Origin: Acidobacteriota bacterium
Lineage (GTDB): Bacteria > Acidobacteriota > Vicinamibacteria > Vicinamibacterales > 2-12-FULL-66-21
NCBI GenBank assembly: GCA_003222675.1
Contig: QHWT01000038.1
Coordinates: forward strand, 2,924-66,923
Direction: 5' to 3'
Length of the DNA stretch: 64,000 bases
Numbering within the stretch: position 1 is the stretch's first letter; every line of letters begins with the position of its first letter. Of this stretch, positions 4,723 to 51,202 are shown one piece after another. Position numbers and translations under genes: made by a program. The notes beneath the pieces were generated by a model that was not told the DNA's origin, ran no database searches, and saw only the letters and a list, made by a program, of their open reading frames with translations.

Positions 4723-4725
4723 ATC

Positions 4726-5001
4726 GGGGTGCGGGGTGCGGGGTGCGGGGTCCGGGGTGCGGGGTGCGGGGTCCGGGGTGCGGGGTGCGGGGTGCGGGGT
4801 CCGGGGTGCGGGGTCCGGGGTGCGGGGTCCGGGGTGCGGGGTCCGGGGTGCGGGGTCCGGGGTCCGGGATAATTTTGCCGCGACGTGCCGCAGACGCCGC
4901 AACAACCCAGCTTTGCGGATCCCGCCCTGCGCCCCGCGCCTCGCGCCCCGCGTCCCGCGCCCCGCGCCCCGCGTCCCGCGCCCCGCGCCCCGCGCCCCGC
5001 G
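4726..5001. repeat. Facing G-rich / C-rich heptamer arrays (gap 4723-5062)
   Basis: From 4726 to 4868 the plus strand is an almost perfect 7-bp tandem array, GGGGTGC alternating with GGGGTCC, about 20 units. After a 60-bp ordinary spacer it is answered at 4930-5001 by a C-rich array of CCCCGCG and CCCGCGT-type units. The two arms are roughly complementary, so the locus could form a long hairpin, and the G-rich arm has many GGGG runs able to stack as G-quadruplexes. Arginine/proline-rich reading frames across it are artefacts of the repeat. No other gene is visible between the aminotransferase and the next CDS. Confidence 0.9.
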
Positions 5002-26719: not shown

Positions 26720-26842
26720 TGCTTTTCGCGAAGGCGAAAGGCGGAAGCCCTGCCTTCGCCGCTTCGCCGCGGCAGGCGCCGCGGCAGGCGCACGTCGACC
26801 GCACACCTCGCACCGCGGACCTCGGACCTCGCGCCTCGCACT
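26720..26842. repeat. Facing GCGAAGG-type words and CGCACCTCG word array
   Basis: An arm of GCGAAGGCGAAAGGCGG type (26728-26745) is answered by CCTTCGCCGCTTCGCC (26753-26768), and a one-sided array of CCTCG-containing 8-mers follows (26806-26840). It fills the divergent gap between the YHS gene and the formate dehydrogenase operon, so the formate dehydrogenase promoter must lie in or beside repeat DNA; I could not identify it. Confidence 0.6.
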
Positions 26843-26853
26843 AACATATCGAA

Positions 26854-29800
26854 ATGCTGAAGGAACTTCTGTCGAGCTGGCCGGTTGTGAAGCAGATCAC
26901 GAGCGGCGGCGATGGCACAGGGCGCGAGGCGATGAGCGCGGCGACCCGCGCGCTCCGTCCGCGCAACGACGAAACCGAGGTCGCACGTTCCGTGTGCCCG
27001 TATTGCGCGGTCGGTTGCGGACAGCTCGTTTTCCACCGCAAGGGTCGCCTCGTCTCGATCGAAGGCGACCCGCACTCGCCAATCTCGGAGGGCCATCTCT
27101 GCCCGAAAGGCGCGGCATCGTTCGAACTGGTCACGCACGCGGCACGCGCGACGCGCGTGAAGTACCGCGCCCCCTATGCGACCGAGTGGCACGACATCGA
27201 CCTCGAGACCGCCATGGACATGGTGGCCGACCGCGTGTGGACTTCACGCGAGCGTCACTTCGAGCAACATCGCATCGCGACGACGAAAGACGGATCGCGG
27301 GAGTTGCCGCTCATGCAGTGCACCTCCATTGCGCATCTCGGCGGCGCCACGCTCGACAACGAAGAGAATTATCTGATTAAAAAGCTCTTCGCCGGCGGTC
27401 TGGGCATGGTCTGCATCAGCAACCAGGCCCGGATATGACATAGCTCCACAGTGCCCGGGCTGGGCACATCGTTCGGGCGCGGCGGCGCGACGATGGCGCT
27501 GCAGGATCTGGCGAATGCGGACGCGATCCTCATCATGGGATCGTCGATGGCGGAGAACCATCCTGTCGGCTTTCGCTGGGTGATCAAGGCGCGCGAGCGC
27601 GGGGCGACCGTGATCCACGTCGATCCGCGGTTCAACCGGACCTCCGCGATGGCGGACGTGTGGGCGCCGCTCAGGGCGGGCACCGATATCGTGTTCCTCG
27701 GCGCGCTCGTGAATCACGTGCTGACCCACGGTCTCGAGTTCCGTCAGTTCGTTGTTGCCTACACGAATGCGCCCGCGATCATCAACGACGATTTCAAGGA
27801 TACCGAAGATCTGGATGGCCTGTTCTCGGGATGGGATCCCGAACAGCGGCAGTACTCGCCTGACTCGTGGGCTTACAAGAGCAGCGATCCGAAAGTCGGC
27901 CACGAGGATGGGCACGGCGGCCACGCGAAGGATCGCGGCGGCGAGGCGTCGCCCATGGCGCACGATCCGCCACGCGATCCGACGCTGCAGGATCCACGCT
28001 GTGTCTTTCAGATTCTAAAGCGTCACTTCGCGCGCTACACGCCGGCCATGGTCCAGGAGGTGTGCGGCGTGCCGCCGGAGGCCTTCCAACGCGTGGCGGA
28101 CGCATATATCCGCGCCTCGGGACCGGAACGCACCGGCGCGATCTGTTATGCGGTCGGCTGGACGCAGCACTCGACTGGCGTCCAAACCATTCGTACGGCC
28201 GCCATCCTCCAGCTTCTGCTCGGCAACATCGGACGACCCGGAGGCGGCATTCTCGCGCTGCGCGGCCACGCGTCGATCCAGGGATCGACCGATATCCCGA
28301 CGCTGTACGACGTGCTGCCCGGCTATTTGCCGATGCCGACGTTCGCCGGCGACGGCACGTCGCTCGACAGCTATATCGCGAAGCATCGCCTGCCGCGCGG
28401 CTGGTGGGGCAACCTCGATCGCTACATCGTGTCGCTCCTGAAGGCGTGGTACGGCGATGCCGCGACCGCGGCGAACGACTACGGCTTCGACTGGCTGCCG
28501 CGCATCAGCGGCGATCACTCCCACTTCGGATACTGGCTCGAAATGGCGGATGCCACCGGGACGATCGACGGGCTGTTCGTCATGGGACAGAACCCCGCTG
28601 TCGGCGCGCCGAATGCGCGCCTGGCGCGCCGCGCGCTCGCCAACCTGAAATGGCTCGTCGTCCGGGACCTGGTGGAGCTCGAGACGGCGACCTTCTGGCT
28701 CGACTCGCCGGAAATCGCGCGTGGGGAGATGAGAACGGAGGACATCGCCACCGAGGTGTTCTTCTTCCCGGCGGCCGCGCACACAGAAAAGGATGGCTGT
28801 TTCACCAACACCCAGCGGCTGCTGCAGTGGCACGAACGGGCAGTCGAACCGCCTGGCGATGCGCGCAGCGAAGCGTGGTTCATGTATCACCTGGGACGGC
28901 GACTGAAGGCGCGGGCTGCGGCCGATCAGCGGCCGGCGAACGCGGGCCTGAACGCGTTGACGTGGAATTACCGGACCATCGGCCCGCATGCCGAGCCCGA
29001 TGCCAACGATATCCTGCAGGAGATCAACGGACGGCGCGTCGCCGATCGCTCGCTGCTCCCCGGTTTTCACGCGCTCGAAAGCGATGGCTCGACGTCATGC
29101 GGGTGCTGGATCTACTCCGGCGTGTATCCCTCGCCCGATCGCAACCGCGCGCGCGAGCGCAAGGGACAAGGTCGATACGGACAAGGATGGGGATTTGCGT
29201 GGCCGGCCGATCGACGCATCCTCTACAACCGCGCGTCGGCGCGCCCGGACGGCACGCCGTGGAGCGATCGCAAGAAGCTCGTGTGGTGGGACCGAGCGAA
29301 TCGCGAGTGGGTGGGGCACGACACGCCGGATTTCGGCAAACGAAAGGCGCCGGATTACGTTCCGCCCTCTGGCGCGACCGGCGACGAAGCGCTGAGGGGC
29401 GACGCGCCCTTCATCATGCACGCCGATGGCATGGGCTGGATCTGGGTCCCGAGTGGAGTGAAGGACGGTCCGCTCCCCACGCATTACGAGCCGCTCGAAT
29501 CCGTGATCCCGAACCAGCTCTATTCGCAGCAGTCCAATCCCGTCGCCGATCGCAAGGAGCGGCCGGACAATCCTTACGCCGGCTCGCCGCTCGATCCGCG
29601 CTACCCACACGTCCTCATGACCTATCGCCTGACGGAGCACCACACGTCCGGCGCGATGAGCCGCACACTGTCGCATCTCGCCGAGCTCCAGCCGGAATTC
29701 TTCTGCGAGATCTCCCCCGAGCTCGCCTCGAACATCGGCGCGGCAAACGGGCAGCACGTCACGATCTCGACGCCGCGCGGATCCGTTGTCGCACGTGCGC

Positions 29801-30051
29801 TGGTCACGGCGCGCATGCGGCCGCTCCGCGTGCACGGGCGCGCGGTGCATCAAGTCGGCCTGCCGTATCACTGGGGTTACCGGGGTCTCGTCCGCGGCGA
29901 CGTCGCCAACGATCTCCTCGCGATCTCGGAGGAGCCGACGGTCCGAATTTTCGAGTCGAAGGGACTTGTGTGCCGGATCGAGGTTCGAGGTCCGAGATCC
30001 GAGGTTCGAGATCCGAGGGCCGAGGTCCGAGGTTCCGAGGTCCGGCGATGA
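26854..30051 (+). CDS. fdnG/fdhA: Selenocysteine-containing formate dehydrogenase, catalytic (molybdopterin) subunit
   Basis: One 1065-residue selenoprotein is read through the in-frame TGA at 27436-27438 (residue 195). The flanking residues, NQARI-Sec-HSSTVPGLGTSFGRGGAT, match the FdnG/FdhA active site where Sec binds Mo or W. The N-terminus has the 4Fe-4S set Cys48, Cys51, Cys55, Cys83; the rest is the bis-MGD domain series, with GNIGRPGGGIL and a C-terminal aspartate-decarboxylase-like fold. It oxidises formate to CO2. No twin-arginine signal is visible, unlike E. coli FdnG. The last 20 or so residues are translated from a short-word repeat. The stop overlaps the next subunit by 4 bp. Confidence 0.93.
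27436..27438 (+). other. UGA codon decoded as selenocysteine
   Basis: The TGA sits exactly where formate dehydrogenases carry Sec or Cys, the reading frame continues unchanged for 871 further codons with full family similarity, and a SECIS-like hairpin follows. The codon is therefore not a nonsense mutation. The selA/selB/selC genes needed for decoding must lie outside this window. Confidence 0.92.
27451..27467 (+). promoter_or_regulatory. Bacterial SECIS hairpin, apical part
   Basis: A perfect 6-bp stem GTGCCC/GGGCAC (27451-27456 with 27462-27467) encloses a five-base loop GGGCT. The loop falls at bases +19 to +23 after the UGA, the same place as the GGUCU loop of the E. coli fdhF SECIS, and keeps the G-G-x-C-U character bound by SelB. 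Weaker pairing below the stem is possible. Confidence 0.8.
29979..30046 (+). repeat. GAGGTCCGA word array at the 3' end of the formate dehydrogenase gene
   Basis: About eight units of 7-8 bp (GAGGTTC, GAGGTCC, GAGATCC) run in tandem up to the stop codon. In frame they encode a charged tail (EVRGPRSEVRDPRAEVRG) with no counterpart in known formate dehydrogenases. The array is one-sided: no facing arm is seen downstream. Confidence 0.8.
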
Positions 30052-30839
30052 TCACGGCCTTCCTCACCGACTCCACGCTGTGCATCGGATGCAAGGCATG
30101 CGAGGTCGCGTGCAAGGAGTGGAACCAGGTACCGAGCGATGGCTACCACTTCACCGGCTTCTCGTACGACAACACCGTCGCGCTCGGACACTCGACGTGG
30201 CGGCACGTGAAGTTCGTCGAGCGCACGGCGGGTGTCGCGGCACCGATCGACGGCACCGCCGGCTATCGCAGCAACACATTCCGGTGGGACTTCTCGTCGG
30301 ACGTGTGCAAGCACTGCTCGAACGCCGGCTGCCTCGAAGCCTGCCCCACGGGATCGATCGTCCGCACGGAGTTCGGCGGCGTTTACGTGCAGCCGGACAT
30401 CTGCAACGGCTGCGGCTACTGCGTCGTATCGTGTCCCTTCGGAGTCATCGATCGGCGTCCGGAGGATGGCCGCGCGTTCAAGTGCACGTTTTGTTACGAC
30501 CGCCAGAAGGCGGGCCTCGCGCCGGCGTGCGCTGCTGCGTGTCCGACGCAATCGATCCAGTTTGGAGAGATTGGGGAGCTGCGGGCGAAGGCAGCCGCGC
30601 GGATCGCGCAGCTTCGTGAGCGCGGGATCGATGACGCCAGCATCTATGATCCGCAACACACGAGCGTTGGCGGCACGCACGCGATCTTCGTACTCCGCGG
30701 CCGTCCCGAGGACTACAACCTTCCGTCGAACCCCGAGGTGCCAACCGTACATCTCCGCGACGGCTGGTCGTCGGCGGCCGTCGCCGCAGGTCTGATGCTG
30801 CTCGGCACGGCCGCCGCGTTCTTCATGCAGCGCGAGTAG
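30048..30839 (+). CDS. fdnH/fdhB: Formate dehydrogenase iron-sulfur subunit
   Basis: The 263-residue ferredoxin-like subunit has four cysteine clusters for four 4Fe-4S centres: CIGCKACEVACKE, CKHCSNAGCLEACP, CNGCGYCVVSCP and CTFCYDRQKAGLAPACAAACP. A single hydrophobic helix at the very C-terminus (SAAVAAGLMLLGTAAAFF) anchors it to the membrane, as in FdnH. It passes electrons from the catalytic subunit to the NrfD-type membrane subunit. The ATG at 30048 overlaps the previous stop by 4 bp. Confidence 0.93.
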   Translation: MITAFLTDSTLCIGCKACEVACKEWNQVPSDGYHFTGFSYDNTVALGHSTWRHVKFVERTAGVAAPIDGTAGYRSNTFRWDFSSDVCKHCSNAGCLEACPTGSIVRTEFGGVYVQPDICNGCGYCVVSCPFGVIDRRPEDGRAFKCTFCYDRQKAGLAPACAAACPTQSIQFGEIGELRAKAAARIAQLRERGIDDASIYDPQHTSVGGTHAIFVLRGRPEDYNLPSNPEVPTVHLRDGWSSAAVAAGLMLLGTAAAFFMQRE

Positions 30840-36673: not shown

Positions 36674-37333
36674 ATGAGTCAGATATTCGCTCGCAGCACC
36701 AACATCTGGTCCAAAGTCAGCATCCTGGCCGTCCCGATTCTCGTGGCATTTCTCGGCTGGGCGGTCGTCACGATTTCTTGGTCGGGATACGTCACTGGAC
36801 AGGGGTTGACGCGCGATCAGCCCGTCCAGTTCAGCCACGCACATCACGTCGGATCCATGGGCATCGATTGCCGTTACTGCCACACGACGGTGGAAGAGTC
36901 GGCATTCGCGAACATCCCGCCCACCAAGACGTGCATGAACTGTCACTCGCAGATCTGGACCAGCGCGCCGATCCTCGAGCCGGTGCGCGCCAGCTTCCGC
37001 GACAACACCCCGCTCCAATGGTGGCGCGTCCACGACCTGCCTGACTTCGTGTATTTCAATCACAGCATCCATGTGGCGAAGGGCGTCGGGTGCGCGACGT
37101 GCCATGGGCCGGTCGATCGCATGCCGCTCGTGTATCAGGAGAACACGCTCCAGATGAGTTGGTGCCTCGATTGCCATCGCAACCCGCAGAAGTACATCCG
37201 CCCACGTGACCAGGTCTTCAACATGTCGTGGCAGCGTCCCGCGGACGATCCCGGCATGGGCGAGCGGCTGGTGAAGGATTACAAGATCGCCGACGTGCGG
37301 CAGCTCACAAGCTGTTCGACGTGTCACAGGTGA
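36674..37333 (+). CDS. actA: Alternative complex III, pentahaem cytochrome c subunit ActA
   Basis: The 219-residue protein has one N-terminal membrane anchor (residues 14-36) and five CxxCH haem c motifs at Cys66, Cys87, Cys140, Cys164 and Cys214, the number expected for ActA. Several extra His residues (FSHAHHVG, FNHSIHVAKG) can serve as distal ligands. It sits on the periplasmic side and carries electrons out of the quinol-oxidising core. It is the first gene behind the Rex-box promoter. Confidence 0.94.
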   Translation: MSQIFARSTNIWSKVSILAVPILVAFLGWAVVTISWSGYVTGQGLTRDQPVQFSHAHHVGSMGIDCRYCHTTVEESAFANIPPTKTCMNCHSQIWTSAPILEPVRASFRDNTPLQWWRVHDLPDFVYFNHSIHVAKGVGCATCHGPVDRMPLVYQENTLQMSWCLDCHRNPQKYIRPRDQVFNMSWQRPADDPGMGERLVKDYKIADVRQLTSCSTCHR

Positions 37334-37341
37334 AGTTTCCC

Positions 37342-37436
37342 GTGGCCAGTTTCCAGTTGCCAGCCGCAGTAAAACCACGTGTCGTGCCGGTTGCCGGCTG
37401 CCAAGTCATAACTGGTAACCGGCTCCTGGCTACGGG
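37342..37436. repeat. Word dyad between actA and actB
   Basis: GGCCAGTTTCCAGTTGCCAG (37343-37362) is answered by GGTTGCC, GGCTGCC, ACTGGTAACC and CTGGCTAC words (37389-37436). The unit is CCAGTTG/CAACTGG-like. It separates actA from actB by 113 bp in an otherwise overlapping operon, so it may have been inserted or may adjust the ratio of the two products. Confidence 0.65.
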
Positions 37437-37446
37437 TTACTGACGT

Positions 37447-40586
<3,140 letters not shown>

Positions 40587-40587
<1 letters not shown>

Positions 40588-41966
40588 TGGATCCCAAACC
40601 CGCTACGTACCCGGCTGCCCCGCTCATCGAGCCGGGGCACACGTTCGGATCGATCACAGACAAGATCAGCGCGGTCGTGCTGTCGGGCCGGCAGCCGATC
40701 AGCTGGTTCGTCGTGCTGTCGATCGGATTGCTGCTCTGCGGCATGCTCGGGATGGCGATCACGTGGCTGCTGATCAAGGGCACCGGCATCTGGGGCATCA
40801 ACATTCCCGTCGGCTGGGGCTTTGCGATCATCAACTTCGTCTGGTGGATCGGCATCGGCCACGCGGGCACGCTGATCTCGGCGATTCTGCTGCTCCTCAA
40901 ACAAGGCTGGCGCACGTCGATCAACCGTTTCGCCGAAGCGATGACGATCTTCGCCGTCATGTGCGCGGGATTGTTCCCGCTGATTCACACCGGCCGTCCC
41001 TGGCTCGCGGCGTACTGGCTGTTCCCGTACCCGAACACCATGTCGATCTGGCCGCAGTTCAGGAGCCCGCTGATCTGGGACGTGTTCGCCGTCTCGACCT
41101 ACTTCACGGTCTCGCTGCTGTTCTGGTACGTCGGATTGATCCCGGATCTGGCGACGCTCCGCGACAAGGCGAAGCACCGCGGCTTGAGGATCGCCTACGG
41201 CATGCTCTCGCTCGGCTGGCGCGGATCCGCGCGCCACTGGCAACGCTACGAGCATATCTACCTGCTCCTCGCAGGACTCTCGACGCCGCTGGTCCTCTCG
41301 GTCCACACCGTCGTGAGCTTCGACTTCGCGATCGGCATCGTTCCCGGATGGCACGCCACGATCTTCCCGCCGTACTTCGTTGCCGGCGCGATCTACGCGG
41401 GGTTCGCAATGGTGTTGACGCTCGCGATCCCGCTCAGGAAGATTTACGGCCTCGAAGACTTCATCACGATGCGGCACCTCGAGAACATGGCCAAGGTGAC
41501 GCTGCTCACGGGTCTCATCGTCGCCTACGGCTACATGTCCGAGGCCTTCTTCGGCTTCTACAGCGCGAACAAGTACGAAGGCTTCATGATCTGGAACCGC
41601 ATGACCGGCCCGTACTGGCCGTACTACTGGACACTCGTGTTCTGCAACATCCTGACGCCCCAGTGGCTGTGGATCAAACGCGTCCGCACGAGCCCGCTCC
41701 CGCTGTTCATGGTGGCGATGGTCGTGAACTGCGGCATGTGGCTCGAACGCTTCGTCATTGTCATCACCAGCCTGCACCGCGATTTCCTGCCCTCCTCATG
41801 GGGGATGTATTACCCGACGATGTGGGACTGGATGACGTTCGTCGGGACGCTCGGCCTGTTCATCACGCTGTTCTTCCTGTTCATCCGCGCGCTGCCGATG
41901 ATCTCGATCTTCGAAATGCGATCGATGGCTCCGGAAGCCAGGATGCCGGGAGGCAAGGGGCACTGA
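40587..41966 (+). CDS. actC: Alternative complex III, NrfD-like quinol-binding subunit ActC
   Basis: The 459-residue integral membrane protein has about ten hydrophobic segments and the ActC/NrfD features FVWWIGIGHAGTLISAILLL and NRFAEAMTIFAVMCAGLFPLIHTGRPW. ActC carries the quinol site and a proposed proton path. Start and previous stop share one base (TGATG). Together with ActF it forms the membrane half of ACIII. Confidence 0.95.
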
Positions 41967-42502
41967 TGAGCACTGCTCCCATCTATGGCCTGATGGCCGA
42001 GTTCGATACGCCGGCCGCGCTCGTGGCTGCCGCGAAGCGGGTCTATGCAGCGGGATACCGCAAGATCGACACGTTCTCGCCGTTTCCGGTCGAAGAAGCG
42101 TGGGAGGCGATCGGCCATCGCGATCGGCGGATGTCGTTCATTGTACTGATGGGCGGTCTCGTCGGCGGCCTCGGGGGGTACGGCCTGGAATACTGGGTCC
42201 ACACGATGGCCTACCCGATCAACGTCGCGGGCAAGCCGCTCAACAGCTGGCCGCAATTCATTCCGGTGACCTTCGAGATGACGATCCTGATCGCGGCGCT
42301 CTCGGCCGTGATCGGCATGATCGTCCTCAACGGCCTGCCGATGCCGTATCACCCGGTCTTCAACGTGCCACGCTTCGAGCACGCGAGCCGCGACAAGTTC
42401 TTCCTGCTGATCGAGTCGAACGATCCGAAGTTCGATCGTCAGCGGACGCTGGAGTTCCTGAAGGGACTCGATGCGAGTGAAATCAATGAAGTCGCGCCGT
42501 AG
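41966..42502 (+). CDS. actD: Alternative complex III subunit ActD (DUF3341)
   Basis: The 178-residue protein matches DUF3341: an N-terminal soluble part (YGLMAEFDTPAALVAAAKRVYAAGYRKIDTFSPFPVE), two membrane helices (around residues 55-75 and 95-120) and a C-terminal soluble tail (FFLLIESNDPKFD). The ATG at 41966 overlaps the ActC stop by one base, and this start gives the canonical family N-terminus. It is a structural membrane subunit beside ActC. Confidence 0.93.
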   Translation: MSTAPIYGLMAEFDTPAALVAAAKRVYAAGYRKIDTFSPFPVEEAWEAIGHRDRRMSFIVLMGGLVGGLGGYGLEYWVHTMAYPINVAGKPLNSWPQFIPVTFEMTILIAALSAVIGMIVLNGLPMPYHPVFNVPRFEHASRDKFFLLIESNDPKFDRQRTLEFLKGLDASEINEVAP

Positions 42503-43100
42503 CTTCTGCCTCCTGTCTGCTGCCTTCTGTCTCCTTGCAGCCGCAGGCTGCAGACAGGACATGCACAACCAGCCGAAATACATCCCGCTGCGCGACAGCG
42601 CGCTGTTCGCGAACGGATCGAGCGCGCGGCCGCTCGTCGAAGACACGGTGGCGCGCGGCACGCTGCAGGACGATGAGGCGTTCTTCACGGGAAAGACCGG
42701 CGGCGCGGACGTCAACACGCTGCCCTTCCCGCTGACGAAAGAGGTCCTGGACCGCGGCGAGCAGCGCTACAACATCTACTGCTCTCCCTGCCACGATATG
42801 ACGGGCGCCGGCCAGGGCATGATCGTGCGCCGGGGCTATCGACAGCCTCCCTCGTTCCACATCGATCGCCTGCGCCAGGTGCCGATCGGCCATTACTTCG
42901 ACGTCATCAGCAACGGCTTCGGCGCGATGCCGGATTATCGCGCGCAGGTTGCGCCACGCGATCGGTGGGCGATCGCCGCGTACGTCCGCGCGCTGCAACT
43001 CAGTCAGCACGCGGCGGCCGCGGAGATCCCTGCCGAAGACCGGCAGAAGCTCTCGCAGTCGCCCCCTGCGCCGTCCGAGGGCGCGGCAAAGCACGAATGA
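42471..43100 (+). CDS. actE: Alternative complex III, monohaem cytochrome c lipoprotein ActE
   Basis: The 209-residue protein has a lipoprotein signal (LLAAAGC) and one haem motif CSPCH near residue 104, followed by a Met-containing GAMPDY region that can supply the axial ligand. It accepts electrons from ActA. ATG 42471 is preferred because GAAGGGA precedes it; ATG 42486 is the alternative. Its signal peptide is encoded almost entirely by a CTGCCTTCTGTCTCC word repeat. Confidence 0.92.
   Translation: MRVKSMKSRRSFCLLSAAFCLLAAAGCRQDMHNQPKYIPLRDSALFANGSSARPLVEDTVARGTLQDDEAFFTGKTGGADVNTLPFPLTKEVLDRGEQRYNIYCSPCHDMTGAGQGMIVRRGYRQPPSFHIDRLRQVPIGHYFDVISNGFGAMPDYRAQVAPRDRWAIAAYVRALQLSQHAAAAEIPAEDRQKLSQSPPAPSEGAAKHE
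42497..42559 (+). repeat. CTGCCTTCTGTCTCC word repeat forming the ActE signal peptide
   Basis: Tandem variants of TTCTGCCTCCTG / TGCTGCCTTCTG (42503-42535) run into a GCAGCC/GGCTGC hairpin and an AGACAGGAC word that complements CTGTCT. In frame this gives FCLLSAAFCLLAAAGCRQD, a working lipoprotein leader. It looks like a word dyad recruited as coding sequence. Confidence 0.65.
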
Positions 43101-44299
43101 ATACACACGCGCTCAGCGATACCGCGGACATCGCGCGGCTTCAGCAACGGGGCCTGATCATCGGTGCCGGCGGGCTTGTGGTCGGCGCGATTGGTGCGCT
43201 CCTGCAGCCGGATCAACTCCTGCCCTCGTGGCTGATCGGCTTCACGTTCTGCCTCGGGCTCTCGATGGGTTGTCTGACGCTGCTGATGATGCAGCACATG
43301 TCGGGCGGCCAGTGGGGACTCGTGGGCCGGCGCGTCTTCGAGGCGGGTAGCCGGCTGCTCCCGTACTGCGTGGTGCTCTTCCTGCCGATCGCGCTCTTCC
43401 TTCCGAAGCTGTATCTCTGGGCGCGCCCGGAAGCGGTGCGCGCGGACGAGATCCTGCAGCACAAGGAACCGTACCTGAACGTCTGGTTTTTCCTGATCCG
43501 CGCGGTCGTCTACTTCGTGATCTGGCTGTTCTGCGCGATGAATCTGAACCGCTGGTCGGCGGCGCAGGATCGCGGCGAGGTCGGCGTCACCGAAGCGGAT
43601 ACGCGGCGCTTCCGCGTGATCAGCGCGCCTGGCCTCCTGGCGTACGTCATCACGATGAGCCTTGCGGCCGTCGACTGGCTGATGTCGCTCGACCCCCACT
43701 GGTATTCGACGATCTTCGGCTTCATCATCGTCGCGGGCCAGGCGCTGTGCGCGTTGTCGTTCGCCGTAGCGGTGCTGGCGATCCTCGCAGAGAGCACGCC
43801 GATGTCGGCCGTGCTGCGCGCCGGGCATTTTCACGACCTGGGCAAGTTGATGCTCGCGTTCGTGATGCTCTGGGCCTATTTCTCGTTCTCGCAGTTCCTG
43901 ATCATCTGGGCTGGAAATCTGCCGGAAGAGATTCCGTTCTATCTCGTCCGGCTGCGTAACGGCTGGCAGTACGTCAGCCTGCTGATCGTCGTCGGACATT
44001 TCTTCCTGCCCTTCTTCCTGCTGCTCTCGCGTGACCTGAAGCGACGTCCGCGCCTGCTCGCGCGCGTTGCGTGGTTCATCGTGGCAGTACGGCTGGTGGA
44101 TCTGATCTGGCTGATCGCACCGGAGTTCAGCCACGAGGGCTCGTTTCCAATCAGTCTCGCGAACGTGGCGATCCCGGTGGGACTCGCGGGCGTCTGGCTG
44201 TTTCTCTTCGCGGGTCAGCTTCGACGTCACGCGCTGGTACCGGTCAACGATCCGTACTTCAAGGAGATGCTCGCTCATGGGCAGCACGCCGGGCACTGA
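43097..44299 (+). CDS. actF: Alternative complex III membrane subunit ActF
   Basis: The 400-residue integral membrane protein has about ten hydrophobic segments and resembles ActC, to which ActF is related, with conserved polar positions such as SLAAVDWLMSLDPHWYSTIFGF and FSQFLIIWAGNLPEEIPFY. The ATG at 43097 overlaps the ActE stop by 4 bp. It completes the ACIII core and is followed directly by the gene for an unknown membrane protein. Confidence 0.93.
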   Translation: MNTHALSDTADIARLQQRGLIIGAGGLVVGAIGALLQPDQLLPSWLIGFTFCLGLSMGCLTLLMMQHMSGGQWGLVGRRVFEAGSRLLPYCVVLFLPIALFLPKLYLWARPEAVRADEILQHKEPYLNVWFFLIRAVVYFVIWLFCAMNLNRWSAAQDRGEVGVTEADTRRFRVISAPGLLAYVITMSLAAVDWLMSLDPHWYSTIFGFIIVAGQALCALSFAVAVLAILAESTPMSAVLRAGHFHDLGKLMLAFVMLWAYFSFSQFLIIWAGNLPEEIPFYLVRLRNGWQYVSLLIVVGHFFLPFFLLLSRDLKRRPRLLARVAWFIVAVRLVDLIWLIAPEFSHEGSFPISLANVAIPVGLAGVWLFLFAGQLRRHALVPVNDPYFKEMLAHGQHAGH

Positions 44300-44804
44300 C
44301 GCGCACGCGCACCCGCACGGCAGCCTCGAGAACGTAGAGGTCGCGCACGAGCACAGCGACATCAGCATCCGCGGCATTATCTGGTTCCTCGCGATGCTCG
44401 TCGTGATCGTCCTTGTCACCGACGTCGCGATGTGGGGATTGTTCAAGGGATTCGACAAGCTCGAGCAACGCGACGATCCCTTCGTGACGCCGCTCGCGGC
44501 GCCGGCGGGGCAGCTGCCGGCAGAGCCGCGGTTGCAGACCACGCCGTGGCAGGACCTCACGCAGCTCCGCGCGGACGAACAGAAGCACCTCGATGGCTAC
44601 GGCTGGGTGGATCAGCGCGGTGGCATCGGGCACGTGCCGATCGAACGAGCGAAGGAGCTGTTGCTGCAGCGCGGTCTCCCGTCGCGCGCCAATGCTTCGC
44701 CTGACGCGACCGAAGGGACGCACGTCGCCGCCAGCGGAGAGGCCGCGGGCGGACGGAACATTCGCGCAACGGCACCGAAGCCGGCGGGCGGCGGAGAGAA
44801 ATGA
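44277..44804 (+). CDS. Single-span membrane protein between ACIII and SCO genes
   Basis: The 175-residue protein has a His-rich N-terminus (HAHPHG, VAHEHSD), one membrane helix (residues 36-58) and a periplasmic part ending in YGWVDQRGGIGHVPIERAKELLLQRGLP. That last motif recurs in proteins encoded next to cytochrome oxidases in several phyla, but no function is known to me. It overlaps actF by 23 bp and the SCO gene by 4 bp, so a role in assembly or copper handling of the oxidase is a fair guess. Confidence 0.8.
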   Translation: MGSTPGTDAHAHPHGSLENVEVAHEHSDISIRGIIWFLAMLVVIVLVTDVAMWGLFKGFDKLEQRDDPFVTPLAAPAGQLPAEPRLQTTPWQDLTQLRADEQKHLDGYGWVDQRGGIGHVPIERAKELLLQRGLPSRANASPDATEGTHVAASGEAAGGRNIRATAPKPAGGGEK

Positions 44805-45760
44805 CGAAAGGCTTGACGACGCCGCGTCTAAAGACCCGGCCTGCCGTGCAGTGCGCTGGAGGGCGGACCTTCAGGTCCGCCGGAAACCTCACGGCGGTGC
44901 TTCTTGCAATCGTGTTGTTCGCGCCAGCGACGGCGCTCGCACAGGGCATGGGCATGCCTGCGCCGCCCGAGATCAATCCCGCGAGCAAGAAGCCCGCAAT
45001 CCTCGACAAGGTTGGAATCGACCAGAAGATCGGCCAGCAGCTTCCGCTCGACGTGGTGTTCAAGGACGAAACGGGCCGCGACGTGAAGCTCGGGGAATAT
45101 TTCGCCAGGCGCCCGGTGGTGATGGCGCTCGCCTACTACGAATGCCCGATGCTCTGCACGCAGGTCATCAACGGCATGACCGGCGCGCTGAAGACGCTCT
45201 CGTTCGATGCGGGCAGGGATTTCGACGTGGTCGTCATCAGCATCAACCCGCACGAGAGACCGCCGCTCGCTGCCGAGAAGAAGGCGACTTATCTCGATCA
45301 GTACGCCCGCCCGCAGACAGCGGTGGGCTGGCATTTCCTGACCGGCAGCGAACCGTCGATCAAAGCGGTGGCCGGCGCGCTCGGCTTCCGCTACGCGTAC
45401 GACGACCAGATCGGGCAGTACGCGCACGGTGCGGCGATCTACGTTGCGACGGCGAAGGGGATCGTGGCGCGATATTTCCTCGGCGTGGAATTCCCGCCGA
45501 CGCACCTGCGCTATGCGCTCGTCGAGGCGTCGAACAACAAGCTGGGAACGATCGCGGACCAGGTGCTCCTGTTCTGCTACCACTACGATCCAGCGACGGG
45601 GAAATACGGCGTCGCGATTCTGCGGGCCGTGCGCATTGGCGGCGTGCTGACAGTCGCGGCGCTCCTGACATTCCTGTGCGTCAGCCTCCGCCGTGAGCGC
45701 CAACGCGCCCGGACCGACAGCGACCGGAGCTTCGAGTCCGGGATCGCGAACCGTATCTGA
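44801..45760 (+). CDS. sco: SCO1/SenC-type copper chaperone for CuA assembly
   Basis: The 319-residue protein has a thioredoxin fold with the copper-binding CPMLC (Cys115, Cys119) and a downstream His (QYAHGAAIYVA) as third ligand. It delivers copper to the CuA site of subunit II, whose gene follows 3 bp after. A C-terminal hydrophobic helix (residues 278-297) adds an anchor. The first 30 residues (RLKTRPAVQCAGGRTFRSAG) are translated from REP-like palindromes ahead of a normal signal sequence, so the real start could be later. Confidence 0.92.
   Translation: MTKGLTTPRLKTRPAVQCAGGRTFRSAGNLTAVLLAIVLFAPATALAQGMGMPAPPEINPASKKPAILDKVGIDQKIGQQLPLDVVFKDETGRDVKLGEYFARRPVVMALAYYECPMLCTQVINGMTGALKTLSFDAGRDFDVVVISINPHERPPLAAEKKATYLDQYARPQTAVGWHFLTGSEPSIKAVAGALGFRYAYDDQIGQYAHGAAIYVATAKGIVARYFLGVEFPPTHLRYALVEASNNKLGTIADQVLLFCYHYDPATGKYGVAILRAVRIGGVLTVAALLTFLCVSLRRERQRARTDSDRSFESGIANRI
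44824..44882 (+). repeat. REP-like palindromes within the 5' end of the SCO gene
   Basis: GTCTAAAGAC (44826-44835) and GGCGGACCTTCAGGTCCGCC (44862-44881) are the same element type as at 54331-54382. They lie within the first 27 codons as annotated and could fold over the translation start region. Confidence 0.75.
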
Positions 45761-49652: not shown

Positions 49653-50885
49653 ATGGCTAATCTGAATACCGATCTCGCGTCCCTGCGCATTCCGCAGGAA
49701 GACCGCGCCGGCGGGCGCGGGAAGCCGGTGCTGCTGGTACTGATCCTGATCGTCGTCGCCTTGGTGGCGGGGGGCGGTTGGTTCTGGTCCACGAAGCTCC
49801 AGGCGACACCGGTGAAGATCGTCACCGTGACCGCGAAGTCGAGGGGTTCATCCGCGTCCGGCGCAGTATTGAATGCCTCGGGCTACGTGACGGCGCGGCG
49901 GCGCGCCACTGTGTCGTCGAAGGTCACGGGCAAGGTCATCGACGTGCTCGTTGAGGAAGGACACGCCGTCAAGCAGGGTCAGGTGCTCGCGCACCTGGAC
50001 GATACGCAGATGCGCGCGTCGCTGGCGTTTGCCGAGGCGCAGCTCGCCGCGGCGCGTACGAGCGCCGCCGAGGATCAGGCGCGCTTACAGCAGGCGGAGC
50101 TCACGCTCCATCGCCGCGAGCAGTTGCTCAAGGAGAACGTTGTCGGCAAGGCCGAGCTCGACGAAGCGCAATCGAATGTCGATGCGCTCAGGGCGCGAAT
50201 CGCGTACGCGCAGCAGCAGGTCGCGGTCGCCGAGAGCCAGGTGAACCTGCAGAAGACCAACCTCGCGGACATGGTCGTGCGCGCGCCGTTCAACGGCGTG
50301 GCGATTTCGAAAGACGCACAGCCGGGCGAGATGATCTCGCCGGTGTCCGCGGGCGGCGGCTTCACGCGAACCGGCATCTGCACGATCGTCGACATGTCGT
50401 CGCTCGAGATCGAGGTCGACGTCAACGAGAGCTACATCAATCGCGTGCGCGACGGCCAGCGCGTCGAAGCGGTGCTCGACGCCTATCCCGACTGGCGCAT
50501 CCCGTCACACGTCATCACGACGATTCCGTCCGCGGACCGTCAGAAGGCGACGATGAAGGTGCGCATCGGGTTCGACGCGCTCGATCCGCGCATCCTGCCT
50601 GATATGGGCGTGAAGGTGTCGTTCCTCGAGAACGCGCGGCCGGAGGCCGGGGGGGCGCCAGCGGCGCCGCGTGCCGCACTGCCGAAAGACGCGGTGCGCA
50701 CGGTCGACGGGCGCACGGTGGTGTTCGTGCTGAATGGCGACGCGCGCGTCGAACGCCGCGCGATCGCGGTCGGTCCCGATAATGGCGACCAGGTGGAAGT
50801 GATTTCGGGTGTCTCAGCCGGCGAGCGCGTAGTCGTGTCCGGACCGCCGACGCTCAAGGACGGCGACAAGGTCAAAGTCCAGTAA
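49653..50885 (+). CDS. Periplasmic adaptor (membrane fusion) protein of MacA/HlyD type
   Basis: The 410-residue protein has an N-terminal membrane anchor (residues 24-46), two lipoyl half-motifs (GKVIDVLVEEGHAVKQGQVLAHLDD; VVRAPFNGVAISKDAQPGEMI) around a coiled-coil hairpin of about 100 residues, then beta-barrel and membrane-proximal domains. It links an inner-membrane ABC exporter with an outer-membrane duct. The ATPase and two permease genes follow. Its last codons have been copied 174 bp downstream together with intergenic DNA. Confidence 0.92.
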   Translation: MANLNTDLASLRIPQEDRAGGRGKPVLLVLILIVVALVAGGGWFWSTKLQATPVKIVTVTAKSRGSSASGAVLNASGYVTARRRATVSSKVTGKVIDVLVEEGHAVKQGQVLAHLDDTQMRASLAFAEAQLAAARTSAAEDQARLQQAELTLHRREQLLKENVVGKAELDEAQSNVDALRARIAYAQQQVAVAESQVNLQKTNLADMVVRAPFNGVAISKDAQPGEMISPVSAGGGFTRTGICTIVDMSSLEIEVDVNESYINRVRDGQRVEAVLDAYPDWRIPSHVITTIPSADRQKATMKVRIGFDALDPRILPDMGVKVSFLENARPEAGGAPAAPRAALPKDAVRTVDGRTVVFVLNGDARVERRAIAVGPDNGDQVEVISGVSAGERVVVSGPPTLKDGDKVKVQ

Positions 50886-51202
50886 GAAGCGTCGCGAACG
50901 AGCGCAGCGAGTGAGCCACGCGATGCACCTTCGCTGCTTCGCAGCTACGGCGCACAAGGCGGGAGCGGGACCAAGGGATCCCGCGAGCGAGCGTGTAGGG
51001 GGCCCGGCGGGGCGAAGCCCCCGAACAAGAAGGATGGCGACAAGGTGAACGTCCAGTAACAGCCCGCTGCGAACGAGCGCAGCGAGTGAGCCACGCGATG
51101 CACCTTCGCTGCTTCGCAGCTACGGCGCACAAGGCGGGAGCGGCACCAAGGGATCCCGCGAGCGAGCGTGTAGGGGAGTTCGAGGGGCGAAGCCCCTCGA
51201 TT
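50856..51202 (+). repeat. Tandem duplication of a 174-bp unit containing the adaptor gene tail (gap 50886-51290)
   Basis: Unit 1 (50856-51029) and unit 2 (51030-about 51202) share an almost identical block of about 115 bp (GAACGAGCGCAGCGAGTGAG through GAGCGAGCGTGTAGG) and each begins with the last ten codons of the adaptor gene: DGDKVKVQ-stop in the gene, DGDKVNVQ-stop in the copy. Each ends in a GGGGCGAAGCCCC-like hairpin. No gene is seen in the 405-bp gap. Confidence 0.88.

Follow-up and report, generated by a model that had tools for sequence, protein, structure and literature searches.

A probable selenocysteine-containing formate dehydrogenase of an acidobacterium, with a single-base departure in the loop of its SECIS-type hairpin

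In the stretch of acidobacterial DNA analyzed here (64,000 nucleotides, hereafter the window), the gene fdhA probably encodes a selenocysteine (Sec) formate dehydrogenase, whose in-frame UGA would be read by means of a SECIS-type hairpin and whose partners would be an iron-sulfur subunit and an NrfD-type membrane subunit, and we put the probability of this reading at roughly 93%. The features on which it rests are collected in Table 1. Fdh here is essentially an ordinary gene of a known kind with one unexplained base, located in the loop of the hairpin.

Table 1. Features of the predicted formate dehydrogenase operon and their positions in the window
Feature	Position	Strand	Evidence
fdhA, predicted formate dehydrogenase catalytic (alpha) subunit, 1,065 aa with Sec195	26854..30051	+	NF041513, Pfam domains, solved chains
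Putative 4Fe-4S site C48-x2-C51-x3-C55-x27-C83, then invariant Lys85	26995..27102	+	invariant alignment columns; Molybdop_Fe4S4
TGA probably read as selenocysteine, residue 195, then His196	27436..27438	+	homologs of the order, 6sdr/6sdv alignment
SECIS-type hairpin, stem 27451-27456/27462-27467, loop GGGCT 27457-27461	27451..27467	+	88 Sec homologs, covariation
Base +21 of the loop (E. coli U24), which is G in the window and T in all other Sec homologs examined	27459	+	
fdhB, predicted iron-sulfur (beta) subunit	30048..30839	+	Fer4_11, other 4Fe-4S domains; TIGR01582
Predicted NrfD-type membrane (gamma) subunit, 290 aa	30849..31721	+	PF03916 NrfD, 52.7 bits

The frame of fdhA runs from an ATG at 26854 to a TGA stop at 30049-30051, and its sole interruption is the TGA at 27436-27438, which lies at the known Sec position, as an earlier note on this DNA had claimed. 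A mechanical gene caller cut the frame, in the way that note had foreseen, into two pieces of 194 aa (26854-27438) and 866 aa (27451-30051). Over its whole length, the product matches the NF041513 family (formate_DH_Act) with 1588.4 bits against a cut-off of 1400, and it presents the Pfam domains Molybdop_Fe4S4, Molybdopterin, and Molydop_binding. The active-site motif is U195-H196, the residues C48, C51, C55, C83, and K85 are invariant across the aligned homologs, and residue 195 aligns with the modified residue X of the Sec formate dehydrogenase chains 6sdr and 6sdv. The enzyme would be a molybdenum or tungsten formate dehydrogenase, with selenocysteine as active-site residue 195. The last part of the frame (29979-30044) consists of the 7-mer CGAGGTC in about nine copies, and this array gives the protein an additional tail (IEVRGPRSEVRDPRAEVRGSEVRR) that is absent from the aligned relatives; similar arrays of short units occur upstream of the gene (26805-26831), beside selD (L020), and at the end of a relative's gene (L042). 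Elsewhere in the window, we could notice a 175-bp unit that occurs twice in tandem, the two copies being 91% alike (50856-51196), and two long 7-mer arrays, one of about 20 CGGGGTG units and one of about 11 CGCCCCG units, both lying inside 300 bases (4725-5001).

Among the loci of the host and its order, 20 cover the Sec site, namely the gene of the window and 19 others, and every one of them has a TGA there. When the best 80 loci of a scan of named genomes were added to those of the host and its order, 99 sites could be classified, comprising 84 with TGA, 4 with TAG, and 11 with Cys (hence 88 Sec homologs, from ten phyla). The four TAG sites all belong to Geodermatophilaceae (L067, L081, L083, and L088) and have the same hairpin with a GGTCT loop; the use of UAG for Sec in this family has already been published (PMC5330540). 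Some apparent irregularities were set aside, namely a double TGA in L026 and L031, whose second TGA is an ordinary stop, and a match without a stop on host contig C84, which began only past the Sec site in a locus that does have the TGA. Furthermore, compared with L024 and L025 (75% identity), dN/dS is about 0.13 to 0.18 on both sides of the TGA, with dN of 0.17 to 0.19 and dS of 1.1 to 1.45 that are alike 5' and 3' of it. Since selection is alike on both sides, the part 3' of the TGA appears to be translated and selected. In agreement with the absence of relaxation, departures at columns conserved in seven relatives number 4 of 299 after the UGA in the window, compared to 5 of 300 in L024 and 4 of 299 in L025.

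The genome of the host (7.16 Mb in 152 contigs, 99.9% complete and 3.9% contaminated) contains the machinery that the earlier note had held to be required, with a tRNA-Sec of anticodon TCA (61.4 bits), SelA (539 bits), SelB (335 bits), and SelD (344 bits), all four above their curated cut-offs. The result that would have contradicted that note, a complete genome devoid of selB or tRNA-Sec, is therefore not what we observed. A second tRNA-Sec match above the cut-off, on contig C108, turned out to be a tRNA-Ser. The host SelB is homologous to SelB chains of known structure, and the host SelD has an in-frame TGA of its own, in the context CAG-U-ASK. Formate dehydrogenases need the sulfurtransferase FdhD, which is also present in the genome. 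Moreover, SelB was found in 50 and SelD in 49 of 60 relatives, so that the Sec trait is common in the order of the host and not patchy, as the sel genes of the phylum had been supposed to be; in our opinion, this is one of two useful points to be retained. In most selD genes of the order (L020, L153 to L182), two hairpins lie 3' of an in-frame TGA; the second one, about 33 nt downstream, has a GU loop. No bacterial selenoprotein is more widespread than Sec formate dehydrogenase and, because of this and because Sec in Acidobacteria has been known since 2006, the gene itself changes little. The report of that year described three families and four selenoproteins (PMC1794560).

The host has a second Sec formate dehydrogenase (L043, contig C84, at about 39.3 to 42.6 kb), with a TGA and an AGTTT loop. 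Its N terminus, MAISRRTFLQ, features a Tat signal (SRRTFLQ), and the gene is followed by those of an Fe-S subunit and a cytochrome b-like protein, which is the layout of FDH-N. The alpha subunit of L043 also presents a large Gly/Ala/Pro-rich insert between conserved blocks.

Downstream of the TGA of fdhA, the sequence GTGCCC-GGGCT-GGGCAC can form a perfect stem of 6 bp, with the loop at +19 to +23, and the 17-mer has a folding energy of -10.1 kcal/mol. The bSECIS model asks for a loop of 3 to 9 nt, a stem of 4 to 16 bp, a G among the first two loop positions, a spacing of 16 to 37 nt, and an energy of -7.5 kcal/mol or lower (PMC13188914), and the hairpin of the window lies within all these limits (5 nt, 6 bp, GG, 18 nt, and the energy given above). 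Rfam and tRNA scans of the 64-kb window found nothing. In a context of 61 nt, the minimum-energy fold differs from the hairpin, whose pairing probability is about 0.36; this weak folding in context was considered as a peculiarity of the window and discarded, given that close relatives compete equally or worse. According to the mechanism that we propose, the hairpin (+13 to +29) would bind SelB with Sec-tRNA-Sec, and Sec would be inserted at the UGA in place of termination.

Taken on its own, the hairpin is weak evidence because of its chance level: a looser bSECIS-like hairpin within the allowed spacing follows 11% of the TGA triplets of the window, and a hairpin of 6 bp at exactly this place follows 9 of 1,624 (both strands). 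The latter figure is what could be said for a TGA that is a true stop or a pseudogene mutation, with a hairpin due to chance, but this TGA of the Sec position is shared throughout the order and in ten phyla, selection is purifying to a similar degree before and after it, and the genome encodes the full Sec machinery, and we thus regard this explanation as extremely improbable.

The evidence from the hairpin becomes strong because of its conservation and covariation. All six stem pairs form in 85 of the 88 Sec homologs, and five pairs form in the remaining three. In particular, the pair +15/+27, which joins two third-codon positions, is formed in all 88, compared to an expectation of 46% for independent columns, and such a level of pairing was not reached in any of 10,000 permutations. 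The pair occurs as GC, CG, TA, GT, or TG, and its type changed at least 15 times among the Sec genes on the protein tree. Of the 11 Cys homologs, only 3 form the pair +15/+27, 1 the pair +16/+26, and 2 the pair +18/+24, and 10 have lost two or more stem pairs. A covarying hairpin, kept with Sec and lost with Cys, fits a SECIS element and would not be predicted from coding alone. Together with the machinery of the host and the universal TGA of the order, this contrast sustains the proposal of the earlier note that the gene encodes a Sec formate dehydrogenase with a SECIS.

The same note had matched the GGGCT loop to the GGUCU loop of E. coli fdhF: the offset is indeed the same, but the loops are not equivalent, inasmuch as +21 is otherwise an invariant U. 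Positions +20 and +21 correspond to 23 and 24 if the U of UGA is counted as 1, and they are G and U in 87 of the 88 Sec homologs, the window being the only one with GG. Pattern scans gave the same picture, with T at +21 in 57 sites across 162 genomes of the order and in 58 sites across 396 genomes of the phylum, and with the window as sole exception in each; the two scans share 11 sites, which leaves 104 distinct T sites, some of which recur in the set of 88 homologs. According to a review, the constrained positions of the E. coli SECIS are U17, G23, and U24, and changes at 17 and 23 abolish readthrough in E. coli (PMC8659212). Of these bases, U17 and G23 are present in the hairpin of the window, which has G at 24; we found no mutational data on loop base 24 in the openly accessible literature. 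In the general bSECIS model, the G may be followed by either G or U (PMC13188914).

It is possible to hypothesize that the G is a tolerated variant, that is, that fdhA carries a natural, functional fdhF-type SECIS with G in place of loop U24, which SelB would read with its RNA-binding end unaltered, and we lean slightly toward this interpretation. A co-evolution of SelB behind the loop change was rejected, because relatives with GGTCT-type loops have an identical C-terminal RNA-binding helix in SelB and because the other SECIS elements of the host, those of selD and of the second formate dehydrogenase, keep GU loops. If the base is real, the most likely effect of G at +21 would be to lower the affinity of SelB somewhat without abolishing insertion.

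A less likely alternative is that sequencing or assembly introduced the G at 27459 by mistake and that the true loop is GGTCT, in a wholly standard Sec formate dehydrogenase. The difference concerns one base, is unique among the homologs, falls in a GC-rich run (CCCGGGC), and is known from a single assembly; against an error, the gene is otherwise open over 3.2 kb and shows no further error signs. Slightly less probable still is a decayed SECIS, in which the change of U to G at +21 has largely abolished recognition by SelB, so that mostly the 194-residue fragment would be made in an early stage of loss. In favor of decay, each of the 87 other Sec homologs and each of the 104 distinct scan sites has T at +21, with A, C, or G nowhere else, and the same is suggested by the presence of GGGCT at the equivalent of the loop in 4 of the 11 Cys homologs, which need no SECIS; in addition, the second Sec formate dehydrogenase of the host, with its standard loop, could cover the function. 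On the other hand, the stem and base +20 are intact, GG is allowed by the general model (PMC13188914), and no sign of relaxed selection is seen after the UGA, even though a very recent change would leave no trace there. Should the variant be tolerated, as we suggest, one host SelB would read both GG and GU loops, perhaps at different efficiency. The second useful point is that the single-base departure represents a natural test, ready for use, of how strict SelB is toward the SECIS loop.

As for the operon, the start of fdhB overlaps the stop of fdhA (ATGA), and its product scores 202 bits with TIGR01582, below the cut-off of 334.7. No twin-arginine motif was found in fdhA before the start of homology to the mature enzyme, at about residue 45, and the open frame reaches upstream by only about three codons. 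Since a Tat signal is absent, the enzyme probably faces the cytoplasm. With an alpha subunit, an Fe-S beta subunit, and an NrfD-type membrane subunit, it would oxidize formate and pass the electrons to the quinone pool. At 5 kb downstream of the operon there is a respiratory cluster similar to alternative complex III (36674-45760), which encodes a multihaem cytochrome, a large Fe-S protein, an NrfD protein, a cytochrome c, and then an SCO1-type protein; a link between the operon and this cluster may be supposed.

In the protein tree, the closest partners of the window's gene are L024 and L025, from the same family, and then two named Acidobacteriota, which supports the guess of an acidobacterial host; a Verrucomicrobiota bin comes next, beside a large actinomycete clade, and a separate branch gathers the remaining formate dehydrogenases of the order. 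With the NF041513 family, the window shares the Sec site, and its tree neighbors are in the same large clade, rich in Actinomycetota. Different from that family, its branch groups with acidobacterial genes (75 to 76% identical to those of genomes in the host's own family), and it features G at +21 and the short repeat-encoded C-terminal tail. Compared with the SECIS of E. coli fdhF, the hairpin shows the same placement of the loop (+19 to +23), the same bases at +20 (G) and +14 (U), and likewise an upper hairpin of 17 nt. The E. coli sequence compared here, in which GGUCU lies at +19 to +23, was found as fdhF in 5,368 of 5,426 genomes of that species. The stem of the window's hairpin is, however, perfect, without a bulged U, the U at +14 is paired, and +21 is G instead of U. 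At the level of the complex, E. coli FDH-N (FdnGHI, PDB 1kqf) shares a Sec alpha subunit and an Fe-S beta subunit, and fdhA exceeds the TIGR01553 cut-off (898.6 versus 814.2 bits), but the enzyme of the window would lack the Tat signal and have a gamma subunit of the NrfD type, not a cytochrome b. The closest solved relatives are the Sec-containing FdhAB enzymes (6sdr, 6sdv, and 9qm0), whose modified residue aligns with residue 195. FdhAB is a periplasmic enzyme of two subunits, and the window differs from it in that fdhA has no Tat signal and a membrane subunit follows.
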